64,000 nucleotides of DNA, taken from contig NZ_CP043930.1 of NCBI RefSeq assembly GCF_009720525.1, positions 1,178,001 through 1,242,000 on the forward strand, written 5' to 3'. The position numbers were made by a program, and so were the translations under genes. The stretch comes from Gimesia benthica. Its GTDB lineage: Bacteria; Planctomycetota; Planctomycetia; Planctomycetales; Planctomycetaceae. Numbering within the stretch: position 1 is the stretch's first letter; each line of letters starts with the position of its first letter. Positions 16,690 through 38,538 of the stretch are shown piece after piece. Below the pieces are notes generated by a model. That model had not been told where the DNA came from and ran no database searches. It saw only the letters and a list, made by a program, of their open reading frames with translations.

Positions 16690-19600
16690 TTAAAATACCA
16701 GAAATCCGTTATCGTCTTTCAGGGATGCAAAAAAGTCATCGGACTCCTCTGACCAGTCTGCTAACTTTCGTTCGCCCGGATCCAGCACCGCTTCCATCAG
16801 TCCTTCTTCCTGATGTTCATAACCCAGCAGGTGCCCCAGTTCGTGACGAATTACTGTCCAGAGATCAATCAAACCAGCAGCCTCACTGTCAGGCAAGGCG
16901 ATTAACGACAGCTGGCTGTCATATTGAAACTCACTGTGATCCCAGGGCGTCTGATCAACAAACCAGCCATAGCCGGCCGCACTGGCATCCAGATAGATCG
17001 TGTCCCCTTCTACCCTGCCCAGTGTGTTCCCCGACAGATCGACAACCTCGACCTGAACCTGTGCCAGCTTCTGCTGTCCTTCCTCGGACAGTTTTGGTCG
17101 CATATCATCCACAGCACTCTGCAGAGCGGTCTGTGCCTGGTCTTGAGTCAAGATTTTTGTCGATTGCGGGGCATCGAGGAGCGATGAAACCTGCAGCTGC
17201 TGATCCCAATCCTGGGGGTAATTATTGGGATAAATCACTTCCTGCTGCTGCACTTTTGATTTATTGTAATTCGTGGCCAGTAAGATCAGGTCTCGAAAAG
17301 CGACGCGACCACTCCGGTTAAAGTCGCTGAACCAGGCATACTGTGAACTCGACTCCGCAGTGAAACTGTTGTAAACACTCGCAAACAGCAGCAGATCGCG
17401 GAAGCCGATCTGGTCATCATCATTCAGGTCATAGGGATTGGCCCAGATCACAGCAGCGGAATGATCCACGTTCGCGTTCTGGCTCACCCGCTCACTTCCC
17501 AGTCCGATCTGCGAATTCTGAATTTGGAAACCGAGATCATGCGGACCAATGCGTTGCCCCTCCAGATCCAGCAGAACGTTATCCTCGGCCAGTGATTCAA
17601 ATCGGATTCGTGCGAACAGCAGCAGCGTATTGATTCCCAGGTCCGTTAAATCGGTTGTCGCTGACAGACCTTCGACCAGACCGTCTTCGTCGTTGATCGT
17701 TCCGGACTGATTCTGGGAAAATGCTGCCCCGAATTCGATGCCGGTCGCTGAGGTCAGATCCGTCAGATACGCCAGGTCCAGCGAAACCGATGCGATCCCC
17801 TGGGAGTTCAGGTCTTCGGTACTCACCCAGAGTTCGAGCCAGTAACTGTCCCACTCACCCAGCCATTCCACCTCAGCGGACAAGGATTCCGTTTCTCCAT
17901 TCGCGTCAGTTACAGTTGGATTGTTCATGACCCGCAAGGAGACGGTTTCCAGCTCTCGCACTGTAACAACAAACGTTCGAGTCAATGTGGCATTGTCAGC
18001 GGTTGTCTCCAGATCACCATCCAGGCCACCATCTTCTACGATGACCGTAATTGTAGCGGTCCCCGTCTGATCAGCGACAGGAGTGAAGCTTAGACTGCCG
18101 GTTGCATCCGCCGACGAATAGTTGACCACCGGATTTGCAATTAACCCCGGATTATTGCTTTCCGCCGTGACACGCAAGGGCTGCACTTCGCCACCACCGG
18201 CGGTAATTCCACTCAATACCACCGTCTGCTCATGTGCATTCGTCCATAGCAAGAGATCGTCGAGATGATCCAGTTCGGGGTCATCATTCTGCGGGCTGAC
18301 GGTGATGTCGAATGTCAGCTCAATGGATCGGTTATCTCCCGTGGTCTCCAGCAGATGATCCGCACCTCCATCTGTTATCACGAGGGTAATCGTAGCGGTC
18401 CCGGTCTGCTCCGGCGCCGGTGTGAAAACCAGGCTGTCTGTGGTATCGCCGGCGAGATAGTTTATCTGGGGATTCGGAATCAGGGATGGCTGACTGCTCG
18501 TGGCCGTCACGCTTAACGGTTGGGATGTGCCTCCCGCAGTCGTAATCAGAGAGAGAGGAATCGTCTGTTCGCCAGCATCCTCATTGAGAATGAGATTGGG
18601 GAAATCTGAAAGCTGAATAAACAGGTCTCCGAAGTTGTCGATCATGATCGGCCCCTGGTATGAGTCGACCGTGATGTGATTGGCTTCGATATCGATGTCC
18701 GCATCACCTGCCCCACCGATTCCTGTTACCGTCTGCAAAAATAGACTGTCGCTCTGGATCAGGGTGTTTTCACTTGAAGAATTATCAAGAATCGCACCGC
18801 CTGTTGAAATCAGCCAGACATCCCCCGCTGTAATGATCTTTCCCAGTTGAATCGCGAGACCTGCAGTGAGCTGGACGGTATTTGCCGTAGCATCAATGAC
18901 ACCGGTTTCTGCAAAACGGATCAGAGAATCAGCCTGGATCGCAACCATGCCGCTGGTTGTCAGGGTGCCATCGATGTTAATCTCATTGGCATTCAGCTCC
19001 ACATTTCCAGGTCCAGAATCAATCGTATTCAGTGTCACCGAATCGTCGTTACCGGCGTTGATTGTCAGATTAGCCGTGAAAGTCGAATCGACCGGGTTGA
19101 CAATGATGGTATCCGATCCTGTACCGCCGAAGACTTCGGTATTGATTGTCAGCGTGCCAGTCGGATTTGTGAAGACAACCAATTCTCCGAGCGTGGAATC
19201 AATTTGAGTCTCACCATCCCCCGTATCGCCATCATCAGACAGCGTGATCGTCTCTGCATCGCCAGTGAAACTGAAGCTGCGATCGATCGCGGCAATCGTA
19301 TCCAGCACCGGTTCCAACCCCGTGTAGGTAATCGCTGCTGTCGTCTGGCCGTTATAGAAAATGCTGCCATCATTTTCGTTGATAAAACGATGTTCAACTG
19401 AAGTCGCTGTTCCACCGTAAATCTCCAGCATATCTTCCGTCGACTGCCCCCCTCCTTCGAACAGGACTCCTCCCAGAGGCGCAAACAGTCCTTCCGACGG
19501 ATGATTGATGACCAGCCGGTCATCTCCTTCCAGCCCCAGGAATGTCAGGTCTGACAGTTCCGTGAACACCACAACCGGCTCGTCATTGAATTGAAATGTT

Positions 19601-22600
19601 CCGGAGTTGGCACCAGTTGCATTGATCGTTAAGACATCGTCACCCGCTGTTCCTTTCAGTGTCAGGCTGCCGGCCAGAACGTGTGTATGCACTCCGATAT
19701 ATGTAATATCCTGATAGGAACCACTGAAAGAGATCTGCCCCTGATCCGTCCCACTTACAGTGTGCGTAGCAACTTCGCCTTGGGGAACATAATAAATCAA
19801 CTCATCATCCAGCGTCTCCGTCTGAGACCAATGATAGCCCTGAACTGTGATCTGAGAACTCAGACTGGGAACAATCTTATATAAATCCGCCTGGGAGTTG
19901 CCATAAACAAAAGTACGATAAGAGGATCCCAGTGTGATCAATTCCCCAGCCAGATCCAGCACACCTCCGAGTCCATCGGCACTGTCATAATTAATTTGGA
20001 AATAGATGTTATGTGCTGTCGTTTGTAGCAGGGCCTGTTCCTGAATTGTCACATCATCGTCGGAATATAGGGCAACATAGCCTGTCTCCGATTGCAGCGT
20101 CACCCCTGAGTGAACCAGAATATCTTCATCCGGACTGGCTACTGACGAGTCAAACGACCAAAGCAAGAGACTTTTATGAGCAGATACATTCTCGAGCACC
20201 TCCAGGCTCCCGACAGATCGAACTGAAACCCGCTCATTTGTGGATTCAACTCCCTCCAGTCCACTAACGCCCCCAATGATCAGATCACCGGTATTGGTGA
20301 TGTCAATGATCCCATAAGCAACTGCCTCCAGAGTTCCGACCTCAGTCCGCAGAAAATCACCAATGAGACCATTAACTGCAGACAAAATCGCTCGCGACGC
20401 TCTAATATTTACACTGTCAGTACCGTTAGCAATGTCACCAGTTTTAGAAGTGATCTCGACGGTCCCCGAACTGATCACTTCCATGAGCTCAATCGTATTC
20501 TCTGCCAGCAGCCTGAGATCTCCATCACCCGTATTGAGCGAACTGTTTGTATTCGGAAAATCAATTGTAATCGCGACAATATCCAGGTCGCCTGCCCCGC
20601 TTACAGCTCCTGCGATCTGGACCGTTTCTCCATAGATAGTGATCTCACCACTGCCCAGATTTAAACCGTCGCCCAGCATCACATTCAGATTCTGATTATC
20701 ATTGAGGATCGTAACATCCGCATGGAACCCTTCCCCCATGGAATTCAGAGTCATGAGCGGGTCATAGTTAGGATGACTTTCTACGCTCACCGACAGAGCT
20801 TCGGAGGGAGAACTGAATGTCAGCAATGTTCCATAATTGGAATCGATGGACGTCAGCCCTGATCCGGCGTCATTGACTGTCAAAGTCTGTGAGTTAATTG
20901 AACGGTAATTTAATTTGAGATTTTCCACAGTCCCCTGGTTGCGAACTTCTTCCAGATCAAAGTAACGGATCGCAGGAGTCGTTATTCCCTCATAGTAGAC
21001 AGTCCCCACACCTTCAAACAGAAACTCCATTTGAGCCTCTAAACTGTTACCACCCACAATTTCCAGAGTGTCGCCCAGTGTCTCTCCTTCACTGCCTCCC
21101 ACAAAGTTAATGCCACTGCCCGGTTGGAAGACCCCATCAACGGGATGATTGATTACCAGCTGATCATCTCCACTCAGACCAAAGAAGGTGAGACTTTCAA
21201 TATCAGCAAACGGGTTCACCTGACCGTCATTCAATTGCCAGGTACCGGAAGCAGCCCCTGTGGCATTGATGGTCAACACGTCATCACCGGTTGTGCCAGT
21301 CAACTGCAGGTGTGCATTATCCACTACGGGCGGCACTCCAGCATTGATTACGGTCTCAATCTCATAATATTCAATGTTCTGAAAACCATCCGAATAGCTG
21401 ATGACACCACTACCTGTAGTACTGCCAGCCGTATCTGTGCCGGTCACACCTTCCGGGGTGTAATAGTAGATGGTGTCGCCCGGAGAGGTTTCCGTTCCCG
21501 GTGCTCCACCTGCAATCCAGATCTGATTTTCCAGACCGGGATAAATATAGAATGAATCGGAAAGCGTTCCTCCAAATATGTTAACAAGATCATTACGCTC
21601 GACCAGTTGCCCCCTTAAATCGAGCCGTCCTCCCTCGCCGTCCAGAGCACTTGTACCAACCCGGAGATGAATATCACCCCCACTCAACAGGCTGTTATGC
21701 TCCAGCGTCAGATCATCGCTTGAGTACAGCTGAATAGAAGCATAATCCGACGCCTGTAATACAACCCCCGACTCAATCACCAGGTTGTGATCCGCACTCG
21801 CATTATCGACGGCTTCCATAGTATAAAGCCGAATATCTGAAGACCTGATGTCTTCCTTGACCGTCAACCCTCCATAGGTTCTAACACTAACCGCACCCGC
21901 CAGAGAGTTGATTCCTACCAGTTCGCTAATCCCACCGACAGTCAAATCCGTCAAGTTGATTAGGTCAACACCATAATAAGCATAGGCTTCCAGGAACCCA
22001 ATCTCTGTGCGCAGAGATCGAATCGCGGCCTTTTCCGAGATCAACACAGCTGAAGCGGCGGTAAAACTGTTACTCGCTCCCCCTCCCTGAATATCTCCAT
22101 CATGCGTCGTCACCTTGACGTCACCGGTGGTTCGCAGCCCCCCAACAATGATACGACCATCGGATTGCAGTTCGATGGTTCCCGCGCCCGCATCAATCTC
22201 ATAATCCCAGTCGGTAAACGAAATCGTACTTCCATGAATCGTAACATCACTCGTACTGCTGACATCACCAGCGACGGAGACTTCCCCCGCATCAACGATG
22301 AGCTTTGCCCCGCCCAGATCCAGGCCATTGTTCAAGATCACCGCTTCCTGTCTGTCCCGTCCCACCTGCAGGGTCCCGGTCATGCCTGAGCCCAGCGAAT
22401 TCAGTTGAATGGTGGCGGCTTCAGTGTCTCCCACAACGGCCAGAGTCCCTGTAAAACTGCCAACCAGCACAGAGGCGTTACCGGTCACTCGGGTCTGAAT
22501 ACCATCATCGGAGGACACCGTCAGACTGTCCCCGGTCAGAGTCGTCTCAGCAGTACCCATCTCTGAGACGATGGTAGGCACTCCCAGGTAACGAATGGTC

Positions 22601-25600
22601 GCCTCCGAGGCACCGTTAAAGTAGACCGCATTCTGACCTGCCACCAGGCGATGTTCTTCTGAAGTGGCATATCCTCCCTGAAGTTCCAGCACGTCCCCGG
22701 CCTGACCACCGGCATCGTACAAGACTCCATTCGCGGGATTGAAAATCATGCCATCAGGATTGTTGATCAGCAATCGATCGTCGCCCATCAATCCATAAAA
22801 GACCAGTTCATCGATACTGGAGAACGCCACTTCCGGGCCGGAGTTCAATTGCCAGGTTCCGGAATTGGCATCGGTGGCATTTATCGTGAGCACATCATCA
22901 CCGGCAGTTCCAACGATTTTTAACTGGCCGGAGAGTTGAGCAGGATCTCCCTGCTGCAGTGTTTCAACGTTGTTATAAATGATGTCTTTATAATCGCCCG
23001 TAAATGTAAGAGTACCATTTGCATCACTTGACGGAACCTGAGCTAATATGACTCCCTCGGGCAGCAGGTAATTCAGCGTATCACCGATCAGGTCTGGATT
23101 AGCAGGCGAATCAGCAAGTACACCAATATGGGAATTCAGGCTGGGGGTGATCCAGAAGGTATCAGCCTGCGTGCTTCCATAAAGGTAAGCACGATAAGAG
23201 GGGCTCTGAGTTACCAGATTTCCATCCAGATTGAGTACTCCTCCGACACCATCCGCACTTTGATAATTAACCCGTAAATAGATATTGGAAGAGAGAGTCT
23301 CAAGCGTCACCTGTTCCTCGATTATCAGGTCATCATCGGAATACAGGGCAACATAGTTTGTTTCGGAATGCAGCCTCACCCCTGAATGAACCAGGATATC
23401 TTCATCCAGGCTGGCTACTGACGAGTCCTGCGTCCAAAGCAACAGGTTCGTATAAGAGGATACGTTCTCCTTGACCTGCATACTCCCCAAAGACCGGACG
23501 ATCACGCGACCATAAGTCGATTCGATCCCTTCCAGTTCACTGATACCTCCGATAATCAGGTCTCCAGTATTGGTGAGGTCGATATAAGAGTATGCAACCA
23601 CTTCGAGATTTCCAAGCTCGGTCTCCAATCCGAGGACAGCATCATTTTCGGCAGACAGAATTGCTCGCGAAGCCGTTATATTATTCGCGCTACCATTGCC
23701 GTCATAGATCCCGCCAGTCAAAGAGGTGATCTCCACGTCCCCTTTGCTGATCACTTCCTTGAGTGTAATCGAACTCTCTGTCAGCAGTCGGAGATCGCCA
23801 TCACCTGTATTCAGGGAACTGTTTGGATTGGGAAACTCGATCGTAGTCGCGACAACATCCAGGTCGCCCTCTCCGGTGACAGTTCCTGCGACCTGGACGG
23901 TTTCCGCATCGATGGAGACATCGCCACTGCCCAGGTTTAGCCCATCACCCAGAGTGATGCTGGTATTTTTATCCCGATCATTAATAATCAAGTCAGCTGC
24001 GAACCCCGCTCCCAGGGAATTCAGATTGATCTGGTAATCATTCAGTGGTTGATTACCAAACTGCAGCGTCAGAGTCTCGATGGGCGAGATCAGTTTTAAC
24101 GGGGTGCCAAAAACGCAATCAAAGGCAGTCACACCTGCCCCGGCGTCACTGATTGTGAGTGGCTGTGTTCCCGGAAAGCTGTAATAGATCTGCTGATTTG
24201 TAACCGAAAGCTCAGAAGACAATTCTTCCAGATTGAAGTGATTGATCGCTGGTGCTGCCCCATTACCGTAAAAAATCCGGCCACGATTATCAGCAACGAA
24301 CTCAAACTCGCTGTCTTCAATCACACCCCCGATGATTTCCAGGGTGTCTCCCAGCGTCTCGCCCCCTGTACCACCACCATAGTTGATACCTCCCGCAGGG
24401 TGAAATACGCCATCGACCGGATTATGAATCACCAGCCGGTCATCACCTTCCAGACCAAAGAATGTGAAGCTTTCGATGTCATCAAAACTGACTACTGGCC
24501 CAGCATTTAATTGCCAGGTTCCGGAATTCGAATCCGTCGCGTTGACCGTCAAGACGTCATTGCCGGAAGTACCAGCGACTGAGATCCAGGCTGGATCTGG
24601 TTCAGGAGGCGTGCCTGCATTTTCGATCGTTTCTACATCGACATGCAGTATCTCCTGATAGCCTCCTGAAAAAGTGACTGTTCCCACGGTGGTACTGGAA
24701 CTGGACAACATGGCCGTGACACCTTCCGGGGTGTAATAATACAGCGTATCCGCCGGAGAAGTTGGATCGTTAGCATCAAGATAAATCCGGTTCCTCTGAC
24801 TGGGGCTAATGTAAAAGGAATCCGCCTGAGCCCCACCATAAATCCCCGCATATGAGCCCCCAAAAACGGTCAGTTCTCCCAGTAAATCCAGCCTCCCTCC
24901 ACTGGCATCATCACCTCCTCCAACATCAACGTTGAGATAGACACTGAACGAAGTCAGCAATGCATTCTGTTCGATCAGCAGGTCATCACATGATCTAAGA
25001 GAAATACTAGAGCCGCCCTGCAGGTACACTCCTGAATTTACAATCAGATTTCGATCAGCAGAGGGATTATCAAAATCCAGTGTTGAAAGAGTGATCCCGC
25101 CCAGTGAGATCAGATCTTCACTGACCTGCAGGTTGCCATAGTTATAGACACTGATCCCCCCCGCCAATGTTTCGATTCCCACCAGATCACTGATCCCACC
25201 AATGGTCAGGTCCCCGGTATTACTGATAGCGCCCCCATCATAGGCGATCACTTCCAGACGACTTAATTCTGTATACAGCTGATTGGAATAACCAACATTG
25301 CCTTGTTCTGCAGACATCACGGCAGAGTAAGCTTTGATCAGGGACGCCCCCGTGGTGACTCTACGAATATCTCCATTCAGCGAAGTCAGTACCACAGTTC
25401 CTGTCGTTGTCAGATTGCCAACGATCAGGTCTTCACTGGATATCAGTTCGATGTTTCCTGCACCGGCATCAATCCCACTGTTCGCATCTGCAAATGTAAT
25501 CGTGTTTGCTTCGATCTGAAGATCACCAGAACGCGTGACTTCACCGGTCACCTGCGCGGAACCTGCGCGGATTGTGAGATCTGCGCTGCCCAGATTCAGG

Positions 25601-28600: not shown

Positions 28601-31600
28601 TAGATGCCGCCAGTCAAAGAAGTGATCTCGACGTCCCCTGTGCTGATCACCTCCTGGAGCGTAATCGAATTCTCTGCCAAGAGGTTGAGATTACCATCAC
28701 CCGTGTTGAGGGAACTGTTTGGATTGGGAAACTCGATCGTGGTCGCCACAACATCCAGGTCTCCTTCCCCGCTGACGCTTCCTGCGATTTGGACAGTCTC
28801 TGCACTAATGGACACATTGCCACTGCCCATGTTTAGTCCATCTCCCAGAGTGATGCTGGTATTGTCATCCCGATCATCAATAATCAAGTCGGCACTGAAC
28901 CCCGCTCCCAGGGAATTCAGATTGATCTGGTAATCATTCAACGGTTGATTGCCATACTGCAGAGACAGTGTCTCGATCGGTGAAATTAATTTCAAAGGTG
29001 TGGCATAATCGGGATCAAAGGCGGTCATGCCTGCCCCGGCATCACTAATCGATAGAGGCCGTGGCCCTGGAAAGCTGTAATAGATCCGCTGATTTGTAAC
29101 CGAAAGTTCAGAAGACAGTTCTTCCAGATTTACATGATTGATTGCTGACGCAGCCATGCCTCCATAAAAAACCCGGCCTCGGTTATAATCAATGAACTGA
29201 AATTCGCTGTCTTCGATCGTCCCACCAATGATTTGCAGGCTATCGCCCAGTGTCTCGCCGCCTGTGCCTCCACCATAGTTGATGCCTCCTGCCGGATGAA
29301 ACACTCCATCGACCGGATTATTAATCACCAGCCTGTCATCACCTTCCAGACCAAAGAATGTGAAGCTTTCGATGTCATCAAAACTGACTACAGGCCCAGC
29401 ATTCAATTGCCAGGTTCCGGAATTCGAATCCGTCGCGTTGACCGTCAAGACGTCATTGCCGGAAGTACCAGCGACTGAGATCCAGGTGGGATCTGGTGCG
29501 GGGGGAGTGCCTGCATTTTCAATGTTTTCTACATCGACATGCAGTATCTCCTGATAGCCTCCTGAAAAAGTGACTGTTCCCACGTTGGTGCTGGAACTGG
29601 ACAATGTGGCTGTGACGCCTTCCGGGGTATAATAATACAGTGTATCCGCCGGAGAAGTTGGATCGTTAGCATCAAGATAAATCCGGTTCCTCTGACTGGG
29701 ATTGATATAAAAGGAATCCGCCTGAGCTCCACCATAAATTCGCGCTTGTTCGCCCCAAAAAACGGCCAGTTCACCCAGTAAATCCAACCTCCCGCCACTG
29801 GTATCATCACCTCCCCCTACATCAACGTTGAGATAGACCCTGTACGAAGTCAGCAATGCATTCTGTTCGATCAGCAGGTCATCACATGATACCAGCGACA
29901 TTCCAGAGCCGCTCTGCAGGAACACTCCCGAATCTACAATCAGATTTCGATCAGCAGAAGGATTATCAATATCCAGTGTGTACAGAGCCACCCCGCCCAG
30001 AGATATCAGATCTTCACTGACCTGCAGTTTGCCATAGTTATAGACACTGATCCCCCCCGCCAATGTTTCGATCCCCACCAGATCACTGATCCCACCAATG
30101 GTCAGGTCCCCGGTATTTCTGATAGCGACCCCATCAAAGGCTATAACTTCCAGGCGACTTAATTCTGTATACAGCTGATTGGAATAACCAACATTGCCTT
30201 GTTCCGCAGACATCACGGCAGAGAAAGCTTTGATCAGGGACGCCCCCGTGGTGACTCTACGAATATCACCAGTTAATGAAGTCAGTACCACAGTTCCCGT
30301 CGTTGTCAGGTTGCCAACAATCAGATCTTCACTGGAAATCAGCTCAATCCCTCCGGCACCGGCATCAATCCCACTATTCTCATCGGCAAACGTAATCATG
30401 GTCGCCTCGATCTGCAGATCACCGGAGCCTGTGACTTTACCGGTCACCTGCGCGGAACCGGCGTGGATCGTGAGATCCGCACTGCCCAGATTCAGGCCAT
30501 CGTTCAAGATCACAGTTTCCTGTTGGTTGCCACCGATCAGCAGCGTCCCCGACACTCCCGATCCCAGTGAATTGAGCTGTAGCGTCGCTGATGCCGAGGT
30601 CCCCTCTACCGCCAGGAGACCAGAATAACTCGTAAAGAGCACTCCCGTATTACCGGTGACTCGCGTTTGCACGCCATCATCTGATGAAACAGTTAGACTA
30701 TCCCCCACCACTGTGGTCGCCACAGCATCGGTGTCCACGATGACAGTTCCCACACCCAGATAACGCACGGTGGGGCCCACAGAACCGTTGAAATAGATCG
30801 CATTCTGTCCCTCGTTCAGCTGATGTTGTACGGACTGGACTGTCCCTCCTGTGAGTTCCAGTTCGTCGCCGGCCTGACCACCGGCATCGTACACGATTCC
30901 ATTCGCAGGATTGAAAATCATCCCCGCAGGATTATTGATCAGTAGTCGATCGTCGCCCGTCAATCCATAAAAAGCGAGCTCGTCAATCCCAGAAAATGCC
31001 ACCGCTGGTCCGTCATTCAACTGCCAGGTTCCAGAATTCGCATCAATCGCATTGATCGTGAGCACATCATCGCCGGCAGTTCCTTCAACTCTCAGCTGAT
31101 TGGCCAGCAACTGCAAATCAGCCTGCTGCAGAGTTTCGACTCCTGAATACTGAATGTCATCATAATCGCCTGTAAATGAAATCTTGCCAAACGTATCGCC
31201 CGACGGAATCACGGTCACAGTCTCTCCCTCCGGAGTGATGTAACTCAAGCTGTCTGTTATCAAATCAGGTGATGCAGGACTGTCTGCCAATACGCTGATG
31301 TGCGAATTCAGACTGGGGGCGATCCTAAATGAATCTGCCTGGGAACTGCCATAGACCGACGTGCGATAAAAGGGTCCCCAAGTGGTCGTCTGACCAGACA
31401 GATCCAGAACACCGCCAACTCCATCGGCACTGTCATAATTGACATTTAAACTGATGTAATAAGCAGGCGCCAGTATTTCAGCCAGTTCTTCGACAGTTAA
31501 GTCGTCGTCCGCATACAGAGCGACTTCGTCATTTGCGGCATGGATCGCTACACCTGACTTCACAACAATATCTTCATTCAGACTCGCCACCGCCGAATCC

Positions 31601-34600
31601 AGTGTGGTGAGCGAAACGCCATTATGGGCTGTTACATTTTCGTGGACTTCCAGTCGTCCCTGTGTCTCGACGATGACATCCCCGCCCGTCGATTCCACAC
31701 CATCCAGTACACCGATGCCACCAAGGATTAGATCTCCGGTGTTGCTGATTTCGATGCTCCCATCAGCCACGGCTTCGAGACGTCCCATCTCCGTCTCCAG
31801 GGTATTCCCAATGCTGCCGTTAACCGCAGACAGAATTGCCTGAGATGCCTTGATATTGTTCAGACTGTCGTTGCCGTCAGTGATGTCACCATTCAAGGAC
31901 GTGATCTCGACAGTCCCCGTGCTGATGACTTCCGTGAGATTGATTGTAGTCTCAGCTTGCAGCCTGAAATCACCGGCACCGGTATTGAGCATGCTGTTGG
32001 CGTAGGGAAAGTCAATCGTAGCTGTCACGATTTCCAGATCACCTGTCCCGGTGACAGATCCGAAAACCCGCACTCTTCCCGTATTGATCGTGACATCAGC
32101 ACTGTCCAGATACAGGCCATCTGTCAGGATCACGGTGTTGTTATTGTGTCGATCATTGATGACAAAGTTGGCATCGAACCCTGCACCCAGTGAATTCAGA
32201 TGAATATAATACTGGTCACCTTGCAGTGGTCTGTTTCCGTACTGTAAAGACAGTGTTTCGATGGGTGTCTCCAGCTTCAGTGGTGTGCCATAAGCAGTAT
32301 CAAAGGCAGTCTTACCTGCCCCGGCATCACTGATCGACAGAAGTGTGGCTGGAATATTGTAATAAAGCTGCTGCTCCGTGACAGACAACTCAGAGACCAG
32401 TTCTTCCAGATCGAAGTAATTAATGGCGGGAACAGCCAGTCCGCCATAAAAAACCCGGCCCCGATCCTCGGTCAGGAACTCAAATTCGCTGTCAGCAACA
32501 AATCCACCAATAATTTCCAGGGAATCGCCCAGCGTCTCCCCCCCCGTGCCTCCGATGTAATCAACACCTGCTGGCGGTTGAAATACTCCATCCACAGGAT
32601 TATTGATCACCAGACGGTCGTCACCTTCCAGCCCAAGAAAGGTAAAATTCTCAATGTCCGAGAAACTGTTTATCGGCCCATCATTCAGTTGCCAGGTACC
32701 TGAGTTTGCACTGATGGCGTTAATCGTGAGCACATCATCACCGGCTGTTCCAGTAACTCTTATATGGCCAGCCTGTTGCTGCAGATCATCCTGCTGCAGG
32801 GTTTCAACAAAATTATAAATGATGTCTTTGAAGCCCCCTGTGAATAAAACGCGACCATTCACATCATCTGACGGAACTAAAGTCGCACTCTCCCCCTCGG
32901 GAACAGAGTAAATCAGCTCATCTTCCAGCGTCTCAGTCTGTGACCAGGGAATGTAGCCTCGAACGATGACCCTGGAATTCAGGCTGGGGGCAATCTGATA
33001 TAAATCCGCCTGGGGGCTACCGTAAACCTGAGTGCTATAAGAGGGATTTTGAGTGATCAATTCCCCAGCCAGATCCAGCACACCTCCGAGTCCATCGGCA
33101 CTGTCATAATTAACATAAAAATAGATATTATGCGCGGTGGTTTGAAGCAGGGCCTGTTCCTGGACTGTCACATCATCGTCGGAATAGAGGCCAACATAGC
33201 CTGTCTCCGATTGCAGCGTCACCCCTGAGTGAACCAGAATATCTTCATCGAGACTGGCAATTTCCGAGTCCAGCGTCCGTAGCCCCAAATTTGCATAAGA
33301 GGACACATCCTCCTGTACCTCGATGCTTCCTAAAGACAGGACGATGACCCGGCCAGAAGTCGATTCAATCCCCTCCAGTTCACTGACTCCACCGATGATC
33401 AGGTCGCCGGTATTGGTGATGTCGATATCTCCAACTGCCACCGCTTCCAGATTTCCAACAGCCGTTTCCAGGGTATAACCGATGCGACCATTGACTGCAG
33501 ACAGAATTGCCCGCGAAGCCGCAATGTTGTTCGCGCTGTCATTGTTGTCAGTGATGTCACCTGTTAACGAAGTAATCTCGACGGTCCCCGTAGTGCTCAC
33601 TTCCCTGAGCTCAATCGTATTCTCTGCCAGCAGTCTGAGATCGCCATCACCGGTATTGAGGGAGCTGTTCGTATTAGCAAATTCAATGGTAGTCGCAACG
33701 ATCTCCAGATCACCGGCACCCGTTACAGCGCCTGCAATCTGGACCGTTTCCCCATAAATGGTAAAAGCACCACTGCCCAGATTCAGGGTATCCCCCAGAA
33801 CCACGGTCTCAGTCCCCGCGCTGTCGAGGATCTCAAAATCTGCAGTGAGACTGGCTCCCAGATCATTCAGGTTCAGCGTATTGATTCCGGCCCCTGCATC
33901 CAGCGTCAGTTTGCCGGTGAAGTCCTGGAAGGTAATGATTTCACCAGCCGTCGAATCTACACTGAGCTGGCCACTCGCGGGACTACTGACAGTGATCGTT
34001 TCGTCCGCATCACTGTAAACCAGCGTAACCTGCGGCGCATCGATGGAGGAAGTGATTGTTTCCAGCCCGGTATAGCTGATCAAATCGAGTCCGGAATCAT
34101 TTATTTGGACTTTGCCATCGTGTTCATTTTCAAAAAGATATTCAGCAGAACCCGCTATCCCGGTCACATCCAGACTGTCAAAACCGCCCCCCTCTCCGCC
34201 GTTGAAAATCACCTTCAATCCCACAGCCGCCAGGGAAGCATCCACACTCACTCGATCATCACCAGTACCGCCATTGATATAGATCTCCCGGGTGATCAGT
34301 GCGGACAGCGGAATTGTGAATTGATTCAGATTGACCTGATTTCCCTCGACAGGCGGAACCAGGCGATTGTTCGGATGAGTTACGACCAGCGCACCATCAC
34401 TCACGGAGAGACTGACCGCTGCATTTTGATTAGTCAGGCTATTGAAGACCAGACTACCGTCTATGAGATCCGCCTTGAGATCGATGATCGGCTGATATTC
34501 ATAGGCGTAGGCAACCCCTGTCTGAACTCCGTCGTGAGCATGATTTCGCCAGCCAGCGATAATTGTTCTGCCACTGATGGCAATGCTTTCGGTGAAAGAG

Positions 34601-37600
34601 GTTTCATTCAGATTCGGATCCAAGGCATAGAGTTGCGCAACATCAGGAGATTCCCAACCATTCCAGCCATCGTATAGATAGACAGATCCCGGATCAGCAG
34701 GATCACCAGAGTCTGGTCCACCGACGAGAATCACATCCCCACTGATCGCAACTCCCAGACCAAATCGATCCGGCTTTGTCTCACCAATGACTGCCAGGGA
34801 TTTAAGTACATCCCAGTTATCTGATTCCTGAATCAGATAAGCATCACCGATAGCGCCAATCACAGCGATCCCGTTCTCGATGCCCACAGAAGTACCAAAA
34901 TGGGAGCCTGTTTCGAAAGCGGTCAACATTTTGATCTCAGACCAGCTGTCATCTCCCGGACTCGCTGTTCCGCTGGTATCTCTGCTGAACAGGTAAACGG
35001 CACCATCCGAGTTATGATAGGGATCCCCCGCGATGATTGTGTTTTCATCTTCACTGATCGCAACGGATTCTCCAAGGAATGCAAAGTCGGTTGCATCAGA
35101 AGCCGTAAGTTTTCTGGTAGAGTAAGTGTTCCAGCCATCATCCGACATAAAGACATAAACGGCCCCTGCTCTTTTCGTTGTTTCATCCACATCGGCATTC
35201 GGGGCCCCCACCACAATTGTCTGTCCTTGCATCGCCAGACTGTGACCAAAGTTTGAAACAGACGGGCCGAAGCCCCTGGGAAAGGGATCCCCGAAGAGCC
35301 CGTCGGCAGGTTGCGTGAATGTCTGCTGATGCACCCAGGCATCATCCTCATGCCCTGGGTTGGCCCCCTCATTCAGCTGGTACAGATAAACAGAGCCGGC
35401 AAGGTCTCCATCGTCTGCATAAGGAGCAGCAATAATCAGCGTATCTCCGTCAATGGCAACAGATCTGCCAAAATCATAATAACCTAGTTCAACTCCATCT
35501 GTCGGGGCATAGATTGTCGAATGAAAATCCCAGGTGTCATCCGTCAGATTATCGGGGGTTTGATTTACATCATTCCGAACATACAGATAAACAACACCGT
35601 CGCGATTGTTATAAGACGCAGCTGCCACGACCATCCAGTCACCATCAACGGCAACCGCACTCCCCGTTTCATCACCTTCTGCCGGATTCGCTGCCGGATC
35701 AGGCAGGAGTTCTCCCTGGCTGATGATGGACGGAATGTCCACCTCAAATGTGGCCAGACTTGAATTCTCTGCGACAAATAGTTGAATGCTGCCATCATCG
35801 CCCACTTCGGAACCATTTAATTGAATCGAGTAGGTTCCGTTATCGGTAAGATCCCAGAAACCGCCGGGAGGCGTGACGGTATAGGTTACTGAAACCGGAC
35901 TCCCATCCACTCCCGAGTGTACGACGGCACTGGTCACTACCAGTGTGTCGTGGGGGCCGGTGACTGTGACATCATTAACGTCGATCGTGGAGATATCAAT
36001 GGCAGAGTCATCGCTAAATTCCACTGTAAAGGAGTATGAATCCAAACCATTTTCTGCCGTCTCGACCTGGGAAACGGAAGCACTGACAAACGGAGGTTGA
36101 TCGAACTGAAAATTTTGCAGCGAAGCGAGTTCTGCTTCCGTCAGGAACATAGCAGCCTCACCAGAGAATCCGGCACTGGTGACCAGCGCATTGGCAGCGG
36201 CCTCTGCATCAGCACGGTTCTCATCCAGAATGGTAAAATGGGCCAGCCTGACAGTCTCACCCGCGTTAACGGTCAGGTTGTAAGCCCAGACGATATTGTC
36301 CCCCACGACTTCGACTGTAGCAGGCACCAGCCCCCGCACGCTGTGAATGTAATGAATCAGAGCCGGAGTTCCGCTTCCGTCAGCATCATCGGTCCCGATC
36401 CATAAATCAGTCGGTTCGACAATCGTGTCGCCGTCAGAAGTATTGAAGACGATGGTCTCACGGTCACTGCCTAAATTACCGACGATTCGCACGGTTTCCG
36501 TGATTGCTGAAGCTGTGGGATTGTGGAACACATCAATGGTACGCGCGAAATCCTGATAACCGGTGTTGGGAACAGTTATTTCCCGATGGACGTCGAGACC
36601 GGAAAGTGATTGCACATTGGACACCACCGTGCGTCCCTCGCCCTCCCAATGCATCGCCATGGGAACATCACCCAGGCGGGTGAGACTGAGCTTATGCTGA
36701 GGAGTATAGTCGGAGGTACTCAACGTGGCAGATCCAGAAATTTTCCGTACCTGTAACTGCACCGTATCCCCGGCACTCAACTCTATAGCCTGTTCTAAAT
36801 TTAATTCGAAGGCTTGACTTCCGAAAACTTGCGGAATTGTAGTAATACGATTTTCACTGACTGCCCCATTGATGAGAAACCGATATTCGACCTGAGAATC
36901 ATAGTAGCTAAAAGAATAATAATACTGACCAGTTCTAGGATTGTAGCCAGTCACTTCCCACACCAATAAATTTTCAACACCAATTTCTCCGGTCAATCGA
37001 TACGCTCCTGACTGAGCGGCCGAAAGCGTGCCCACAGTTTGAAAACTTGTAGTCAATATACTGGAGTCTGATGATCCGCTCTCCTGCGTGGTGATCCCCG
37101 ATACACCTTCATACCGGATCAAACGGAGACGATGCCGAGGGATGAAGGACGAATTAGATAAGTAAACATTCCCGGAGATTTCCCTCACCTCTAAGTGCAC
37201 TCTATCCCCTGCACTCAATTCCACGGTATCAGCCAGATTCAACTCGAAATATTTGGATGATAGATTATCTGAAATATTGAAAATGCGAGATTCTCTCTGA
37301 CTCCCGTTAACCAGGATACGATATTCCAGTTGGGAAGTAGAAGTTGTATAATTTCGAACTCCTATTTCACCGGTCACACGGTACACACCCGATTCTGCAG
37401 CTGTCAGTGTCTCCACGGTGACAAAACTGGAACTCAGACTTTGAAAAGAGGTTGTTGTCGACTCAGCCACAGAGATTCCCGAAATCCCTTCCAGCCGGGT
37501 CAAACCGAGACGATGTAGGGGAGTAGAAGCAGACGTACTTAACCTGACAGATCCCGCATTTTCACGAACCCATAACTGCACAGAATCCCCGGCACTCAGT

Positions 37601-38538
37601 TCCAAGGTCTCTTCCAGGTTCAATTCGAAAGATTTGTCGTAAAGGCCATTCGGTATCGTCGAAACCCGGGATTCACCAAATTCATCATTGATCACCAGGC
37701 CATATTGAACCTGCGAAGCTGACGATGATAGACTACGAATTCCGATTTCGCCGGATATCTCATAAACCCCTGATTCATCGACTGTCAGAGTTCCTATAAC
37801 CAGATAACGGTAATCCAGACTCTGGCTGGCCGTTGATGTTGACTCCTGGAGAGTCGCACTCACTTGATAGTCTGCCATCGAAGGAGCATAATCGATCCCC
37901 CCCACCTGCAAACGGTTCAGACCATCAAACGCTCCATTCGATCCCTGGACCAGCTGCCCGGCACCAAATCCCAAAGACTCAGGATCAAGAGTGTACCCTT
38001 CCGGAGAATTCAGTCCCGTTGATGTCGCCCCCACCACAAAATCAGTCAGATATTCACCACCAAAAGAACCATCGCCGTCTCCATCCAGGGCATTACCGGC
38101 AACGTCGGTAATCGTATCCAGAACCGTCAAACGGTATATATCTTCAGACAAGGCAGCAAAATATAGCTTGGCTGTGTTGGTGTCGTTATTGTAGCTGGTA
38201 GAATCAACCGTAATGACAACATCATCTGCTGATCCCAGTAGACCGTCTACTCCTGCACGGACTAGAACGTAGTTGGCAGCGACGTCGGCCCCTTCGACTG
38301 TTTCACTGAAAGTCACTTTCAGTGAAGTCGCATCGAGATTTAAGGTCCCCGTATTGTCTGGTGATGCTCCTGTGATCGTCGTCAGCATGGTCCGATCTTC
38401 CAGAACTTCGACCGTGGAGATCTGATTGCTTAAGACCGTCTGCCAGTAACGCCGCAGAGCTCTGCGATCACGGGATCGAAAAACGGGGCGCTTACGCAGA
38501 CGGGAGGTGAGTGTTTTGAGCCAGTTAGTAAGCAGCAT
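16690..38538 (-). CDS. Giant (7,282-aa) secreted beta-repeat protein with cohesin-like, dockerin and C-terminal metzincin-like domains
   Basis: The ATG at 38538 has GAGGAG upstream. The basic N-terminus with VEVLEDRTMLT is the LEPR-like motif of planctomycete giant surface proteins. Order of domains: an SbsA/SwmB-type Ig-like domain (about 54-170); three tandem modules of about 130 residues (225-635); a seven-repeat FG-GAP propeller (about 940-1350); nine units of 538-556 residues alternating a GDDRLVIN-type block with FhaB-like beta-helix repeats (about 1500-6450); two cadherin-like Ig repeats (about 6640-6870); a cohesin-like domain; dockerin-like pairs DLNDDDQIGFRDLLLF and DFNRSGRVAFRDLILL; and a C-terminal domain with HELGHLLGYEH (His7232, His7236, His7242) and a downstream Met7248, the metzincin zinc signature. 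The frame is intact over 21.8 kb. Predicted extracellular, roles in adhesion or surface matrix; proteolysis is inferred from the motif only. Confidence 0.9.
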   Translation of the reverse strand: MLLTNWLKTLTSRLRKRPVFRSRDRRALRRYWQTVLSNQISTVEVLEDRTMLTTITGASPDNTGTLNLDATSLKVTFSETVEGADVAANYVLVRAGVDGLLGSADDVVITVDSTSYNNDTNTAKLYFAALSEDIYRLTVLDTITDVAGNALDGDGDGSFGGEYLTDFVVGATSTGLNSPEGYTLDPESLGFGAGQLVQGSNGAFDGLNRLQVGGIDYAPSMADYQVSATLQESTSTASQSLDYRYLVIGTLTVDESGVYEISGEIGIRSLSSSASQVQYGLVINDEFGESRVSTIPNGLYDKSFELNLEETLELSAGDSVQLWVRENAGSVRLSTSASTPLHRLGLTRLEGISGISVAESTTTSFQSLSSSFVTVETLTAAESGVYRVTGEIGVRNYTTSTSQLEYRILVNGSQRESRIFNISDNLSSKYFELNLADTVELSAGDRVHLEVREISGNVYLSNSSFIPRHRLRLIRYEGVSGITTQESGSSDSSILTTSFQTVGTLSAAQSGAYRLTGEIGVENLLVWEVTGYNPRTGQYYYSFSYYDSQVEYRFLINGAVSENRITTIPQVFGSQAFELNLEQAIELSAGDTVQLQVRKISGSATLSTSDYTPQHKLSLTRLGDVPMAMHWEGEGRTVVSNVQSLSGLDVHREITVPNTGYQDFARTIDVFHNPTASAITETVRIVGNLGSDRETIVFNTSDGDTIVEPTDLWIGTDDADGSGTPALIHYIHSVRGLVPATVEVVGDNIVWAYNLTVNAGETVRLAHFTILDENRADAEAAANALVTSAGFSGEAAMFLTEAELASLQNFQFDQPPFVSASVSQVETAENGLDSYSFTVEFSDDSAIDISTIDVNDVTVTGPHDTLVVTSAVVHSGVDGSPVSVTYTVTPPGGFWDLTDNGTYSIQLNGSEVGDDGSIQLFVAENSSLATFEVDIPSIISQGELLPDPAANPAEGDETGSAVAVDGDWMVVAAASYNNRDGVVYLYVRNDVNQTPDNLTDDTWDFHSTIYAPTDGVELGYYDFGRSVAIDGDTLIIAAPYADDGDLAGSVYLYQLNEGANPGHEDDAWVHQQTFTQPADGLFGDPFPRGFGPSVSNFGHSLAMQGQTIVVGAPNADVDETTKRAGAVYVFMSDDGWNTYSTRKLTASDATDFAFLGESVAISEDENTIIAGDPYHNSDGAVYLFSRDTSGTASPGDDSWSEIKMLTAFETGSHFGTSVGIENGIAVIGAIGDAYLIQESDNWDVLKSLAVIGETKPDRFGLGVAISGDVILVGGPDSGDPADPGSVYLYDGWNGWESPDVAQLYALDPNLNETSFTESIAISGRTIIAGWRNHAHDGVQTGVAYAYEYQPIIDLKADLIDGSLVFNSLTNQNAAVSLSVSDGALVVTHPNNRLVPPVEGNQVNLNQFTIPLSALITREIYINGGTGDDRVSVDASLAAVGLKVIFNGGEGGGFDSLDVTGIAGSAEYLFENEHDGKVQINDSGLDLISYTGLETITSSIDAPQVTLVYSDADETITVSSPASGQLSVDSTAGEIITFQDFTGKLTLDAGAGINTLNLNDLGASLTADFEILDSAGTETVVLGDTLNLGSGAFTIYGETVQIAGAVTGAGDLEIVATTIEFANTNSSLNTGDGDLRLLAENTIELREVSTTGTVEITSLTGDITDNNDSANNIAASRAILSAVNGRIGYTLETAVGNLEAVAVGDIDITNTGDLIIGGVSELEGIESTSGRVIVLSLGSIEVQEDVSSYANLGLRTLDSEIASLDEDILVHSGVTLQSETGYVGLYSDDDVTVQEQALLQTTAHNIYFYVNYDSADGLGGVLDLAGELITQNPSYSTQVYGSPQADLYQIAPSLNSRVIVRGYIPWSQTETLEDELIYSVPEGESATLVPSDDVNGRVLFTGGFKDIIYNFVETLQQDDLQQQAGHIRVTGTAGDDVLTINAISANSGTWQLNDGPINSFSDIENFTFLGLEGDDRLVINNPVDGVFQPPAGVDYIGGTGGETLGDSLEIIGGFVADSEFEFLTEDRGRVFYGGLAVPAINYFDLEELVSELSVTEQQLYYNIPATLLSISDAGAGKTAFDTAYGTPLKLETPIETLSLQYGNRPLQGDQYYIHLNSLGAGFDANFVINDRHNNNTVILTDGLYLDSADVTINTGRVRVFGSVTGTGDLEIVTATIDFPYANSMLNTGAGDFRLQAETTINLTEVISTGTVEITSLNGDITDGNDSLNNIKASQAILSAVNGSIGNTLETEMGRLEAVADGSIEISNTGDLILGGIGVLDGVESTGGDVIVETQGRLEVHENVTAHNGVSLTTLDSAVASLNEDIVVKSGVAIHAANDEVALYADDDLTVEELAEILAPAYYISLNVNYDSADGVGGVLDLSGQTTTWGPFYRTSVYGSSQADSFRIAPSLNSHISVLADSPASPDLITDSLSYITPEGETVTVIPSGDTFGKISFTGDYDDIQYSGVETLQQADLQLLANQLRVEGTAGDDVLTINAIDANSGTWQLNDGPAVAFSGIDELAFYGLTGDDRLLINNPAGMIFNPANGIVYDAGGQAGDELELTGGTVQSVQHQLNEGQNAIYFNGSVGPTVRYLGVGTVIVDTDAVATTVVGDSLTVSSDDGVQTRVTGNTGVLFTSYSGLLAVEGTSASATLQLNSLGSGVSGTLLIGGNQQETVILNDGLNLGSADLTIHAGSAQVTGKVTGSGDLQIEATMITFADENSGIDAGAGGIELISSEDLIVGNLTTTGTVVLTSLTGDIRRVTTGASLIKAFSAVMSAEQGNVGYSNQLYTELSRLEVIAFDGVAIRNTGDLTIGGISDLVGIETLAGGISVYNYGKLQVSEDLISLGGVALYTLDIDNPSADRNLIVDSGVFLQSGSGMSLVSCDDLLIEQNALLTSYRVYLNVDVGGGDDTSGGRLDLLGELAVFWGEQARIYGGAQADSFYINPSQRNRIYLDANDPTSPADTLYYYTPEGVTATLSSSSTNVGTVTFSGGYQEILHVDVENIENAGTPPAPDPTWISVAGTSGNDVLTVNATDSNSGTWQLNAGPVVSFDDIESFTFFGLEGDDRLVINNPVDGVFHPAGGINYGGGTGGETLGDSLQIIGGTIEDSEFQFIDYNRGRVFYGGMAASAINHVNLEELSSELSVTNQRIYYSFPGPRPLSISDAGAGMTAFDPDYATPLKLISPIETLSLQYGNQPLNDYQINLNSLGAGFSADLIIDDRDDNTSITLGDGLNMGSGNVSISAETVQIAGSVSGEGDLDVVATTIEFPNPNSSLNTGDGNLNLLAENSITLQEVISTGDVEITSLTGGIYDGNGSANNITASRAILSAENGAISSLETEVGNLEAVAYGNIDITNTGDLIIGGVSELKGVESTYGRVIVQSVGSMKVEENVSAYERLTLLTQDSSVASLDEDILVHSGVTLQSETDYVALFSADDLTVEEQATLEALGTHIYLHVNYQSTDGVGGVLNLVGNLKILDPIYRAVIVGSPQADAFLIAPSQNSVIVVYGDNPAAPDLIADTLIYLTPDRETATLTPSNVSNGIILFSGSYQYIDFTSIETVQEGDLAQLAGQLRIDGTAGDDVLTINATDVNSGTWQLNDGPAVAFSAIDELAFYGLTGDDRLVINHPEGMIFNPVGGILYDAGGQADDELELTGGFATSEEHRLVAGQHAVYFNESIEATIRHLGVSRVLSKLDTAETILTGDNLTVSSDDGIQTHVTGANTSVVFESFTGTLSVAGDTGAASIQLNSLGSGLTGTFQAGSEKQETVILNDGLDLGSGEVSIQAGIVQIAGAVTREGDLDISASTIDFTDLNSSLDTGAGDLSLQAERSIYLGHVLTTGTVDITTIEGDIIDNNGSATNISASKAILDAEYEGEILSLETEIGYLEAVARGSIEIINTGDLVIGGVSDLQGIQSFDEWVSVQTMGGMQVGENVRAFDFVVLWTQDSASASLSEDIQVKSDVIISTQFNSITLNAADDLKIEEQARLWSETEINLRVNYDSTDGVGGILDLIGQVNTSGSNYVTNITGSSQADSFRVTPSQGALIEIEGNEPASPGLVGDTLFYMVPEGETATQNSTSESQGSISYTGGYDNIQYSDIEILEQSNPDQLARKLRFEGTAADDVLTINATNENAGTWQLNAGPEVAFSDIDELVFYGLTGDDRLVINHPDGAIFNPTGGILYDAGGQAGDELELAGGTVQSVQHRLDEGQNAIYFNGSVDPTVRYQGLGTVIADTDAVATTVVGESLTVSSDDGVQTRVTGNTGVLFTSYSGLLAVEGTSPSATIQLNSLGSGMLGTLLIGGNQQETVILNDGLNLGSADLTIRAGSAQVTGEVTRSGDLQIEANTITFADANSGIDAGAGNIELISSEDLIVGNLTTTGTVVLTSLNGDIRRVTTGASLIKAYSAVMSAEQGNVGYSNQLYTELSRLEVIAYDGGAISNTGDLTIGGISDLVGIETLAGGISVYNYGNLQVSEDLISLGGITLSTLDFDNPSADRNLIVNSGVYLQGGSSISLRSCDDLLIEQNALLTSFSVYLNVDVGGGDDASGGRLDLLGELTVFGGSYAGIYGGAQADSFYISPSQRNRIYLDANDPTSPADTLYYYTPEGVTAMLSSSSTTVGTVTFSGGYQEILHVDVETIENAGTPPEPDPAWISVAGTSGNDVLTVNATDSNSGTWQLNAGPVVSFDDIESFTFFGLEGDDRLVIHNPVDGVFHPAGGINYGGGTGGETLGDTLEIIGGVIEDSEFEFVADNRGRIFYGNGAAPAINHFNLEELSSELSVTNQQIYYSFPGTQPLTISDAGAGVTAFDCVFGTPLKLISPIETLTLQFGNQPLNDYQINLNSLGAGFAADLIINDRDKNTSITLGDGLNLGSGDVSIDAETVQVAGTVTGEGDLDVVATTIEFPNPNSSLNTGDGDLRLLTESSITLKEVISKGDVEITSLTGGIYDGNGSANNITASRAILSAENDAVLGLETELGNLEVVAYSYIDLTNTGDLIIGGISELEGIESTYGRVIVRSLGSMQVKENVSSYTNLLLWTQDSSVASLDEDILVHSGVRLHSETNYVALYSDDDLIIEEQVTLETLSSNIYLRVNYQSADGVGGVLNLDGNLVTQSPSYRAYLYGSTQADTFWITPSLNSHIGVLADSPANPDLIGDTLNYLLPEGVILAQVPSSDANGTLTFTGDYKDIIYNNVETLQQGDPAQLSGQLKIVGTAGDDVLTINATDANSGTWQLNSGPEVAFSSIDELVFYGLMGDDRLLINNPDGMIFNPANGVLYDAGGQAGDVLELQGGYATSEEHRLVAGQNAVYFNGASEATIRYLGVPTIVSEMGTAETTLTGDSLTVSSDDGIQTRVTGNASVLVGSFTGTLAVVGDTEAATIQLNSLGSGMTGTLQVGRDRQEAVILNNGLDLGGAKLIVDAGEVSVAGDVSSTSDVTIHGSTISFTDWDYEIDAGAGTIELQSDGRIIVGGLRTTGDVKVTTHDGDIQGGGASNSFTAASAVLISEKAAIRSLRTEIGFLEAYAYYGVDLINLTDLTVGGISELVGINSLAGAVSVRTYGGLTVKEDIRSSDIRLYTMEAVDNASADHNLVIESGVVLQASDYASIQLYSSDDLTLEHNSLLSGGDIHLRVGTSALDGEGGRLDLRGQLVERNDLVNIFGGTLSDSFYIYPGLENQIWIAGGAPGTETSPGDTIYYYTPEGVTGTDTAGSTTGSGVISYSDGFQNIEYYEIETVINAGVPPVVDNAHLQLTGTTGDDVLTINATGAASGTWQLNDGQVNPFADIESLTFFGLSGDDQLVINHPVDGVFQPGSGINFVGGSEGETLGDTLEIVGGNSLEAQMEFLFEGVGTVYYEGITTPAIRYFDLEEVRNQGTVENLKLNYRSINSQTLTVNDAGSGLTSIDSNYGTLLTFSSPSEALSVSVESHPNYDPLMTLNSMGEGFHADVTILNDNQNLNVMLGDGLNLGSGEITIYGETVQIAGAVSGAGDLDIVAITIDFPNTNSSLNTGDGDLRLLAENTIELMEVISSGTVEITSKTGDIANGTDSVNIRASRAILSAVNGLIGDFLRTEVGTLEAVAYGIIDITNTGDLIIGGVSGLEGVESTNERVSVRSVGSLEVLENVSAHKSLLLWSFDSSVASPDEDILVHSGVTLQSETGYVALYSDDDVTIQEQALLQTTAHNIYFQINYDSADGLGGVLDLAGELITLGSSYRTFVYGNSQADLYKIVPSLSSQITVQGYHWSQTETLDDELIYYVPQGEVATHTVSGTDQGQISFSGSYQDITYIGVHTHVLAGSLTLKGTAGDDVLTINATGANSGTFQFNDEPVVVFTELSDLTFLGLEGDDRLVINHPSEGLFAPLGGVLFEGGGQSTEDMLEIYGGTATSVEHRFINENDGSIFYNGQTTAAITYTGLEPVLDTIAAIDRSFSFTGDAETITLSDDGDTGDGETQIDSTLGELVVFTNPTGTLTINTEVFGGTGSDTIIVNPVDSTFTANLTINAGNDDSVTLNTIDSGPGNVELNANEINIDGTLTTSGMVAIQADSLIRFAETGVIDATANTVQLTAGLAIQLGKIITAGDVWLISTGGAILDNSSSENTLIQSDSLFLQTVTGIGGAGDADIDIEANHITVDSYQGPIMIDNFGDLFIQLSDFPNLILNEDAGEQTIPLSLITTAGGTSQPLSVTATSSQPSLIPNPQINYLAGDTTDSLVFTPAPEQTGTATITLVITDGGADHLLETTGDNRSIELTFDITVSPQNDDPELDHLDDLLLWTNAHEQTVVLSGITAGGGEVQPLRVTAESNNPGLIANPVVNYSSADATGSLSFTPVADQTGTATITVIVEDGGLDGDLETTADNATLTRTFVVTVRELETVSLRVMNNPTVTDANGETESLSAEVEWLGEWDSYWLELWVSTEDLNSQGIASVSLDLAYLTDLTSATGIEFGAAFSQNQSGTINDEDGLVEGLSATTDLTDLGINTLLLFARIRFESLAEDNVLLDLEGQRIGPHDLGFQIQNSQIGLGSERVSQNANVDHSAAVIWANPYDLNDDDQIGFRDLLLFASVYNSFTAESSSQYAWFSDFNRSGRVAFRDLILLATNYNKSKVQQQEVIYPNNYPQDWDQQLQVSSLLDAPQSTKILTQDQAQTALQSAVDDMRPKLSEEGQQKLAQVQVEVVDLSGNTLGRVEGDTIYLDASAAGYGWFVDQTPWDHSEFQYDSQLSLIALPDSEAAGLIDLWTVIRHELGHLLGYEHQEEGLMEAVLDPGERKLADWSEESDDFFASLKDDNGFLVF
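19300..33900. repeat. Nine in-frame tandem units of about 1.63 kb inside the giant gene
   Basis: Each unit carries the block encoding DVLTINA...GTWQLN...GDDRLVIN. The shared GCCAGGT word (or its equivalent) starts at 19593, 21237, 22851, 24513, 26127, 27747, 29409, 31023 and 32691, so the spacings are 1644, 1614, 1662, 1614, 1620, 1662, 1614 and 1668 nt, all multiples of three. Two unit classes alternate in detail (GVFHPAGGINYGGG type and FNP.GGILYDAGG type). Outer limits are approximate. Confidence 0.85.
23651..31060. repeat. Higher-order duplication with a 4,896-nt period
   Basis: Bases about 23651-26164 recur at about 28547-31060 with an offset of exactly 4,896 nt at every point checked (23651/28547, 24511/29407, 26164/31060), and 22851/27747 share the same offset. 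Long stretches are nearly identical; for example the residues around VTVNATDSNSGTWQLNAGP-like blocks differ at very few positions. The period equals three units (1614+1620+1662) and 1,632 codons, so the repeat array has grown or been homogenised three units at a time. Confidence 0.8.
36640..37870. repeat. Three tandem modules of about 400 nt near the N-terminus of the giant protein
   Basis: Three successive copies encode the pattern ESGVYEISGEIGIR, SQVQYGLVIN, FELNLEETLELSAGD, SVQLWVRE and LHRLGLTRLEG (copy-specific variants ESGVYRVTGEIGV and QSGAYRLTGEIGV). Each ends in a short RLEGISGI-like link. The architecture recalls jelly-roll domains such as C1q/TNF-like folds, but I cannot assign the family from sequence alone. 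Confidence 0.65.

Follow-up and report, generated by a model that had tools for sequence, protein, structure and literature searches.

A recurring C-terminal cassette with predicted cohesin, dockerin and metzincin parts on large proteins of Gimesia

The last 426 residues of a giant protein of Gimesia benthica are, from their alignments and predicted structure, a portable C-terminal cassette made up of a putative cohesin fold, a two-loop dockerin, a short metzincin and a D-x-F-F tail. The encoding frame lies in a stretch of 64,000 nucleotides, here called the window, and its features are given below. The C-terminal domains described in a first-pass annotation of this DNA are real, but they had been taken as a feature of one chain, and the cassette is shared by many proteins. 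To our knowledge, the export, anchoring and assembly of giant proteins in planctomycetes are not settled, and a cassette of about 430 residues offers a small testable piece instead of 800-kDa chains.

16690..38538, minus strand: giant open reading frame, 7,282 aa, 767 kDa, pI 4.05, 3 Cys; ATG start, one open frame
38380..38538, minus strand: basic N-terminal segment, aa 1-53, ending in LEDRTML, a motif common to most cassette proteins examined
38071..38379, minus strand: Ig-like domain Big_5, aa 54-156; Pfam E 1.3e-6, over cut-off
37153..37473, minus strand: BclA_C stretch, the better of two, aa 356-462; E 2.6e-8, 34.2 bits, below the cut-off of 38
35380..35475, minus strand: FG-GAP_2, best of 7 stretches, aa 1022-1053; Pfam E 6e-42
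19642..32772, minus strand: repeat region, units of 538-556 aa, about aa 1923-6299; from markers and a MAFFT alignment
17437..17961, minus strand: predicted cohesin fold, aa 6860-7034; from the predicted structure
17278..17433, minus strand: putative dockerin with two Ca-loop repeats, aa 7036-7087; from Pfam Dockerin_1 and conserved Asp
16726..17160, minus strand: putative metzincin (matrixin-like) domain, aa 7127-7271; span of alignments to matrixins
16813..16845, minus strand: zinc motif HELGHLLGYEH, aa 7232-7242; from the sequence
16795..16797, minus strand: Met-turn Met7248; Met in 96 of 100 cassettes
16693..16740, minus strand: C-terminal tail with D-x-F-F, aa 7267-7282; D7267 and F7270 invariant in 100 cassettes

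The single intact frame reported earlier stands: it runs without interruption from its ATG through 7,282 codons, and GAGGAG lies shortly 5' of the start. An artefact or frame error was ruled out, given the intact frame and the like cassettes in homologues and same-genus genomes. The Ig-like start and the FG-GAP propeller of the first-pass annotation were recovered as Big_5 and as the seven FG-GAP_2 stretches, respectively. That annotation did not mention the BclA_C stretches, LEDRTML at the N-terminus, the D-x-F-F tail or the fact that the C-terminal end recurs. In Pfam searches with the whole protein, a cadherin-like piece and a matrixin scored below cut-off, and neither Cohesin nor Dockerin was matched in Pfam or NCBIfam. 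The first 851 residues gave no worthwhile sequence relative in the PDB. The three cysteines are found at positions 2885, 4517 and 4808. The N-terminus is basic and contains no hydrophobic stretch (maximum KD19 of 0.47 in the first 80 residues), so that a canonical signal peptide was rejected; we infer that the protein is secreted. Elsewhere in the window, a reverse transcriptase fragment (39297-40139, plus strand), closest to group II intron maturases and far below the model cut-off, a transposase fragment of IS3/IS481 type (5747-6379, minus strand; below cut-offs) and a protein kinase of 1,731 aa with WD40 propellers (44219-49414, minus strand) were observed. No Rfam family reached its gathering score across the window.

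The middle of the chain had been described as about 5,000 residues of beta-helix repeats. Nine markers, placed from aa 1933 to aa 6299 at intervals of 538-556 residues, bear out its repetitive nature, but a beta-helix found no confirmation in the Pfam or PDB sequence searches. No Pfam family passed its cut-off in aa 1501-3500, and DUF6252 was the only one to do so in aa 3501-5500. One repeat unit had no relative among PDB sequences at E<=0.1, an antibody chain appearing at E 0.23. The MAFFT alignment used to compare the units puts unit 2 at 87.5% identity with unit 5 and unit 3 at 77.4% with unit 6, so that a block of several units has probably undergone duplication. The middle region varies in length, for two proteins of Gimesia chilikensis whose cassettes are 88-89% identical to that of the window protein total only 4,738 and 4,743 aa. 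Regex counts of the markers in the homologues P0002 and P0003 are incomplete, as units with a differing marker were missed.

The cohesin-like, dockerin-like and metzincin assignments of the first-pass annotation all hold up in the closer analysis of the cassette. The predicted structure contains the cohesin jelly roll, followed by a putative dockerin with two Ca-loop repeats of F-hand type. Pfam Dockerin_1 scores the cassette of the window protein at E 0.017, below its cut-off, and matches 7 of 8 cassette members at E<=0.1. The candidate metzincin combines HExxHxxGxxH and a Met-turn with a predicted matrixin-like fold; Pfam M10 gives E 5.4e-4 and 20.3 bits against a cut-off of 24, and every one of the 8 members tested is matched at E<=0.1. 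The residues numbered earlier (His7232, Glu7233, His7236, His7242 and Met7248) are correct, and the distance of 34 residues to the end given for the motif fits Met7248, but His7232 stands 51 residues from the end. HExxH is present once in the 7,282 residues, at 7232, and a protein of this composition would be expected to contain the complete HExxHxxGxxH 7e-5 times. The model has a pLDDT of 92-95 at the residues joining the cohesin fold to the dockerin, and a low-confidence linker (model residues 258-269) between dockerin and zincin. A cysteine-switch propeptide is a feature of many, not all, matrixins; there is no cysteine in the cassette. Sorting of the PEP-CTERM or GlyGly-CTERM type features a C-terminal transmembrane helix. 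No such helix was found here, the highest KD19 near the end (1.23, aa 7212-7230) lying within the zincin.

Conservation was followed in 141 of 166 proteins, P0022-P0046 being omitted as partial matches. The motif HExxHxx[GADE]xxH lies 50-63 residues from the C-terminal end in 131 of them. The others comprise three proteins of an extended type (motif 230-232 residues from the end, with T, D or R at the position of the third His), one with Asp as third ligand, three that have lost the motif and three truncated at the 3' end. Of the 141, 135 show the pattern D.[FYL][FY] in the tail and 106 have LE[DESP]R.[LMV]L at the N-terminus. For column counts, P0019-P0021, P0166 and the three 3'-cut proteins were dropped, leaving 134, among which 100 share less than 85% identity. 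In these non-redundant cassettes, H7232 is kept in 98, E7233 in 99, H7236 in 97, H7242 in 98 and M7248 in 96, and the Asp at each of four dockerin positions and both D7267 and F7270 of the tail in all 100. P0152, P0162 and P0163, which have no zinc site, retain the tail. Because the zinc site is so strongly conserved, the zincin very likely has peptidase activity. The processing or release suggested in the first-pass annotation may follow, but neither a cut site nor a substrate was found. The best argument for an active enzyme is the catalytic Glu, present in 99 of the 100 cassettes. What speaks most against a protease and nothing more is that two tail residues outconserve the zinc site and outlast it in most zinc-less members.

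The cassette recurs within the genome. A search with the C-terminal 426 residues matched 14 places at E<=0.01, window included, and 13 at E<=1e-5. Besides the window, HExxHxxGxxH is kept at L003, L004, L005, L007 and L012; at L008, L009 and L011 the motif begins with HEIGH and differs at the third position, and L013 and L014 have HExxHxxGxxD. L006 is degenerate, its zinc site lost and its tail changed to D-x-F-L; L010 has lost the zincin and kept the tail as D-x-Y-F; L015 is a remnant without zinc motif. From the sequences of L006 and L010, the parts of the cassette are separable. Several cassette genes of the genome (loci L096, L099, L100, L104 and L106) are apparently split over two frames, through either assembly error or decay; for L100 and L106 at least, the counterparts in same-genus genomes are single frames of similar total length.

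Across the genus, the cassette was found at E<=1e-5 in all 17 genomes searched, with 5-19 copies each. At the same threshold, 2 of 8 further family members had weak matches, and 7 of 15 other genomes of the class matched, two genomes of one family having 11 and 9 copies. In a phylum sample of 294 genomes, for each of which the best 6 candidates were scored, 8 matched at E<=1e-30: 6 of the genus, the present one included, and the two with 11 and 9 copies. Several matches in two genomes of another family end after the dockerin, and no LEDRTLL match was found there. The zincin alone is wider, and loci of Accumulibacter, Rhodobacteraceae and others match across the zincin part only. Large Rhodobacteraceae proteins from Oceanicola and Histidinibacterium (L088 and L092) carry the same zincin with HEMGN replacing HExxH and a zinc ligand lost.

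The proteins that end in the cassette are diverse. Among those examined, their lengths are 832-7,962 aa, a range that reflects searches with candidates of 0.55-1.75 times the query length. Two protein searches, in which 725 and 7,990 candidates were scored, gave at least 46 relatives and the best 120 of at least 226, respectively. Differing precomputed Pfam families are found in the passengers, including FG-GAP_2, Calx-beta, choice-of-anchor Q/pectate-lyase-named families, DUF7453, lipase with RTX and PPIase, where some accessions are those we take to carry these names. In 16 protein pairs, some of them involving database fragments, the cassettes are at least 70% identical and the passengers have no BLAST hit. 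Loose single linkage gave only 5 passenger groups (80, 43, 8, 2 and 1 proteins), since families of repeats become linked to one another, and by this grouping of sequences the passengers are not all independent.

Many cassette proteins share their other end as well. The pattern LEDRT[hydrophobic]L had 11 matches in the own genome, and 10-16 in each of 11 other genus genomes, against 0-1 control hits per genome. The LEDRTLL motif lies upstream, on the same strand and within 26 kb, of 78 of the 90 cassettes listed in nine genomes, a list that includes 8 of the 13 of the own genome, where about 2 of 90 would be expected by arithmetic, and 70 of these 78 distances are shorter than the open frame. 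Counted from the motif, 78 of 121 are paired with a listed cassette and 43 have none among the cassettes listed; one own-genome motif in this count, LEDRRLL, came from a looser pattern. Two genomes (G028 and G037) have cassettes and no motif; conversely, three motifs in G030 and two in G024 occur without any cassette match, and the two of G020 equal its control count. The LEDRTLL gene adjoining L007 has a different C-terminal end. The coupling of motif and cassette is, on these pattern counts, strong and not absolute. The N-terminal model was built from cassette proteins and is hence biased; the pattern searches are unbiased. The LEPR-XLL model NF012209 matched 2 of 5 N-termini tested, one of them over cut-off. 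Two nearly identical ends, L102/L111 (G000:C1:2069287-2083705) and L096/L097/L110 (1396090-1410040), have the zincin (HExxHxxGxxD) and the tail without cohesin-dockerin, and each is preceded on its 5' side, at a distance of about 14 kb, by a LEDRTLL start; several frames lie in the interval.

The distribution of dockerins and cohesins bears on possible partners. At E<=0.01, Dockerin_1 matched 7 proteins of the own genome, all of them cassette proteins (L003, L004, L005, L007, L009, L010 and L011), at a single HMM threshold; the window protein, L006 and L008 have dockerins that this threshold did not pick up, and weak ones elsewhere may escape it as well. Cohesin PF00963 matched once at E<=1e-3, in the cassette protein L007. 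The 11 matches of M10 are 6 cassette zincins, L012 (a zincin end in a 148-aa frame), L013 and L014 (zincin-only ends) and two internal stretches of the L008 protein of 5,437 aa. A bank of dockerin-bearing enzymes gave no sign in the own genome with the Dockerin_1 HMM, which missed some cassette dockerins. Because all 7 dockerin matches fall in cassette proteins, these appear to be the likeliest coupling partners of one another, and the set of dockerin-bearing cassette proteins seems nearly closed, though it may be incomplete. The self-assembly suggested in the first-pass annotation is made more plausible, since the dockerin and cohesin matches lie within cassette proteins; equally, cohesin and dockerin could pair inside one chain. 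A cellulosome was considered and is not supported, the one cohesin and 7 dockerin matches of the own genome, by HMMs that missed known members, all being in cassette proteins.

We propose that the cassette is a shared surface-coupling and protease module, portable on many large Gimesia proteins and usually accompanied by an N-terminal LEDRTLL, a proposal about which our confidence is evenly poised. The cassette proteins would be exported, and dockerin and cohesin would couple them in a Ca-dependent manner, intra-chain or between siblings; coupling among cassette proteins is suggested because no partners outside the set were seen. The metzincin would be an active peptidase held at the junction, where it might mature the cassette proteins or cut nearby protein. 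The D-x-F-F tail would probably have its part in export or sorting and not in catalysis, since it mostly persists where the zinc site has been lost. The same parts could instead constitute an environmental protease, with a digestive zincin displayed on particle- or polysaccharide-binding adhesins and with cohesin and dockerin as spacers packed within the chain. The propeller, Calx-beta and hydrolase-type families among the passengers, the high pLDDT at the cohesin-dockerin join, which fits a packed dyad, and the matrixin fold, whose relatives are secreted proteases, agree with such a role. A digestive enzyme, however, needs neither a constant place at the chain end nor an invariant tail, and we regard this use as somewhat unlikely.

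The constant place agrees with self-maturation, in which the metzincin cuts its own or sibling chains, trimming the tail or freeing passengers, and cohesin-dockerin holds the fragments. Whatever the passenger, each chain end has one zincin, whose spacing from the C-terminus is nearly constant in 131 of 141 proteins; its zinc site is conserved as in an active enzyme, and the linker that joins dockerin to zincin may be exposed. However, no cut site was identified, and the survival of the tail after loss of the zinc site indicates that the tail is independent of an active zincin in the same chain. Self-maturation is unlikely as a separate account, and it overlaps with the shared module, which would allow for such substrates. 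The tail might also be read as part of a sorting signal only, with an export machinery recognizing the C-terminal end and the domain identities being relics. Homology at the extreme C-terminus of unlike proteins, as in C-terminal sorting systems, and two tail positions that outconserve the zinc ligands are in line with this, but zinc ligands, catalytic Glu and Ca ligands at 97-100% argue against relics and make it improbable. A more elaborate form of the shared module can be imagined for Gimesia as a two-ended display: LEDRTLL proteins would be exported and their C-termini joined by Ca-dependent cohesin-dockerin contacts into a shared surface layer, with one metzincin per junction maturing or releasing chains and an export machinery reading D-x-F-F. 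This form is doubtful at present. If the coupling of the shared module holds, cohesin-dockerin pairing would be extended from enzyme complexes to the family-wide joining of large proteins with their own protease.

No description of this cassette was found in the literature, as covered by titles and the beginnings of abstracts, subscription papers being mostly beyond reach. The available text of PMC5177795 reports giant genes in all 29 planctomycete genomes studied. The 'Matrixin' Pla52n_17500 of Stieleria varia, with 6,858 aa, resembles the window protein in being giant, from a planctomycete, annotated as matrixin and furnished with adhesion-type domains; the available part of PMC7717043 gives annotations alone, without the word dockerin, and the two are likened here by annotation. 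C-terminal sorting systems are the topic of PMC1569441 and PMC3237569. Karilysin, other matrixins and snapalysin share the zinc motif, the Met-turn and the predicted fold with the cassette zincin, whereas the latter falls below the Pfam M10 cut-off and, the cassette having no cysteine, has no Cys switch. LEPR-XLL (NF012209) is likewise a short motif, LE-x-R-x-x-L, that long proteins carry close to their N-terminus, but the model returned 0 families for the N-terminus of the window protein. The first two Foldseek matches came from the C-terminus of the Clostridium thermocellum cellulosome scaffoldin (3kcp and 4fl4), which has cohesin and dockerin in one chain; in the Gimesia cassette, by contrast, a protease follows the dockerin, and no dockerin-enzyme bank was seen. 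Cohesins and dockerins outside cellulosomes have been reported (PMC3035643, via the available text of PMC6461901). A further comparison is with the hypothetical 'planctosome' of freshwater planctomycetes, in which, according to the accessible part of PMC6461901, cohesin and dockerin occur alongside zinc peptidases and cellulose degradation is not implied. The parts of the 'planctosome' are distributed over separate proteins (an anchoring protein, an adaptor, and M12B and M14 peptidases), whereas in Gimesia they are brought together in one repeated C-terminal cassette.
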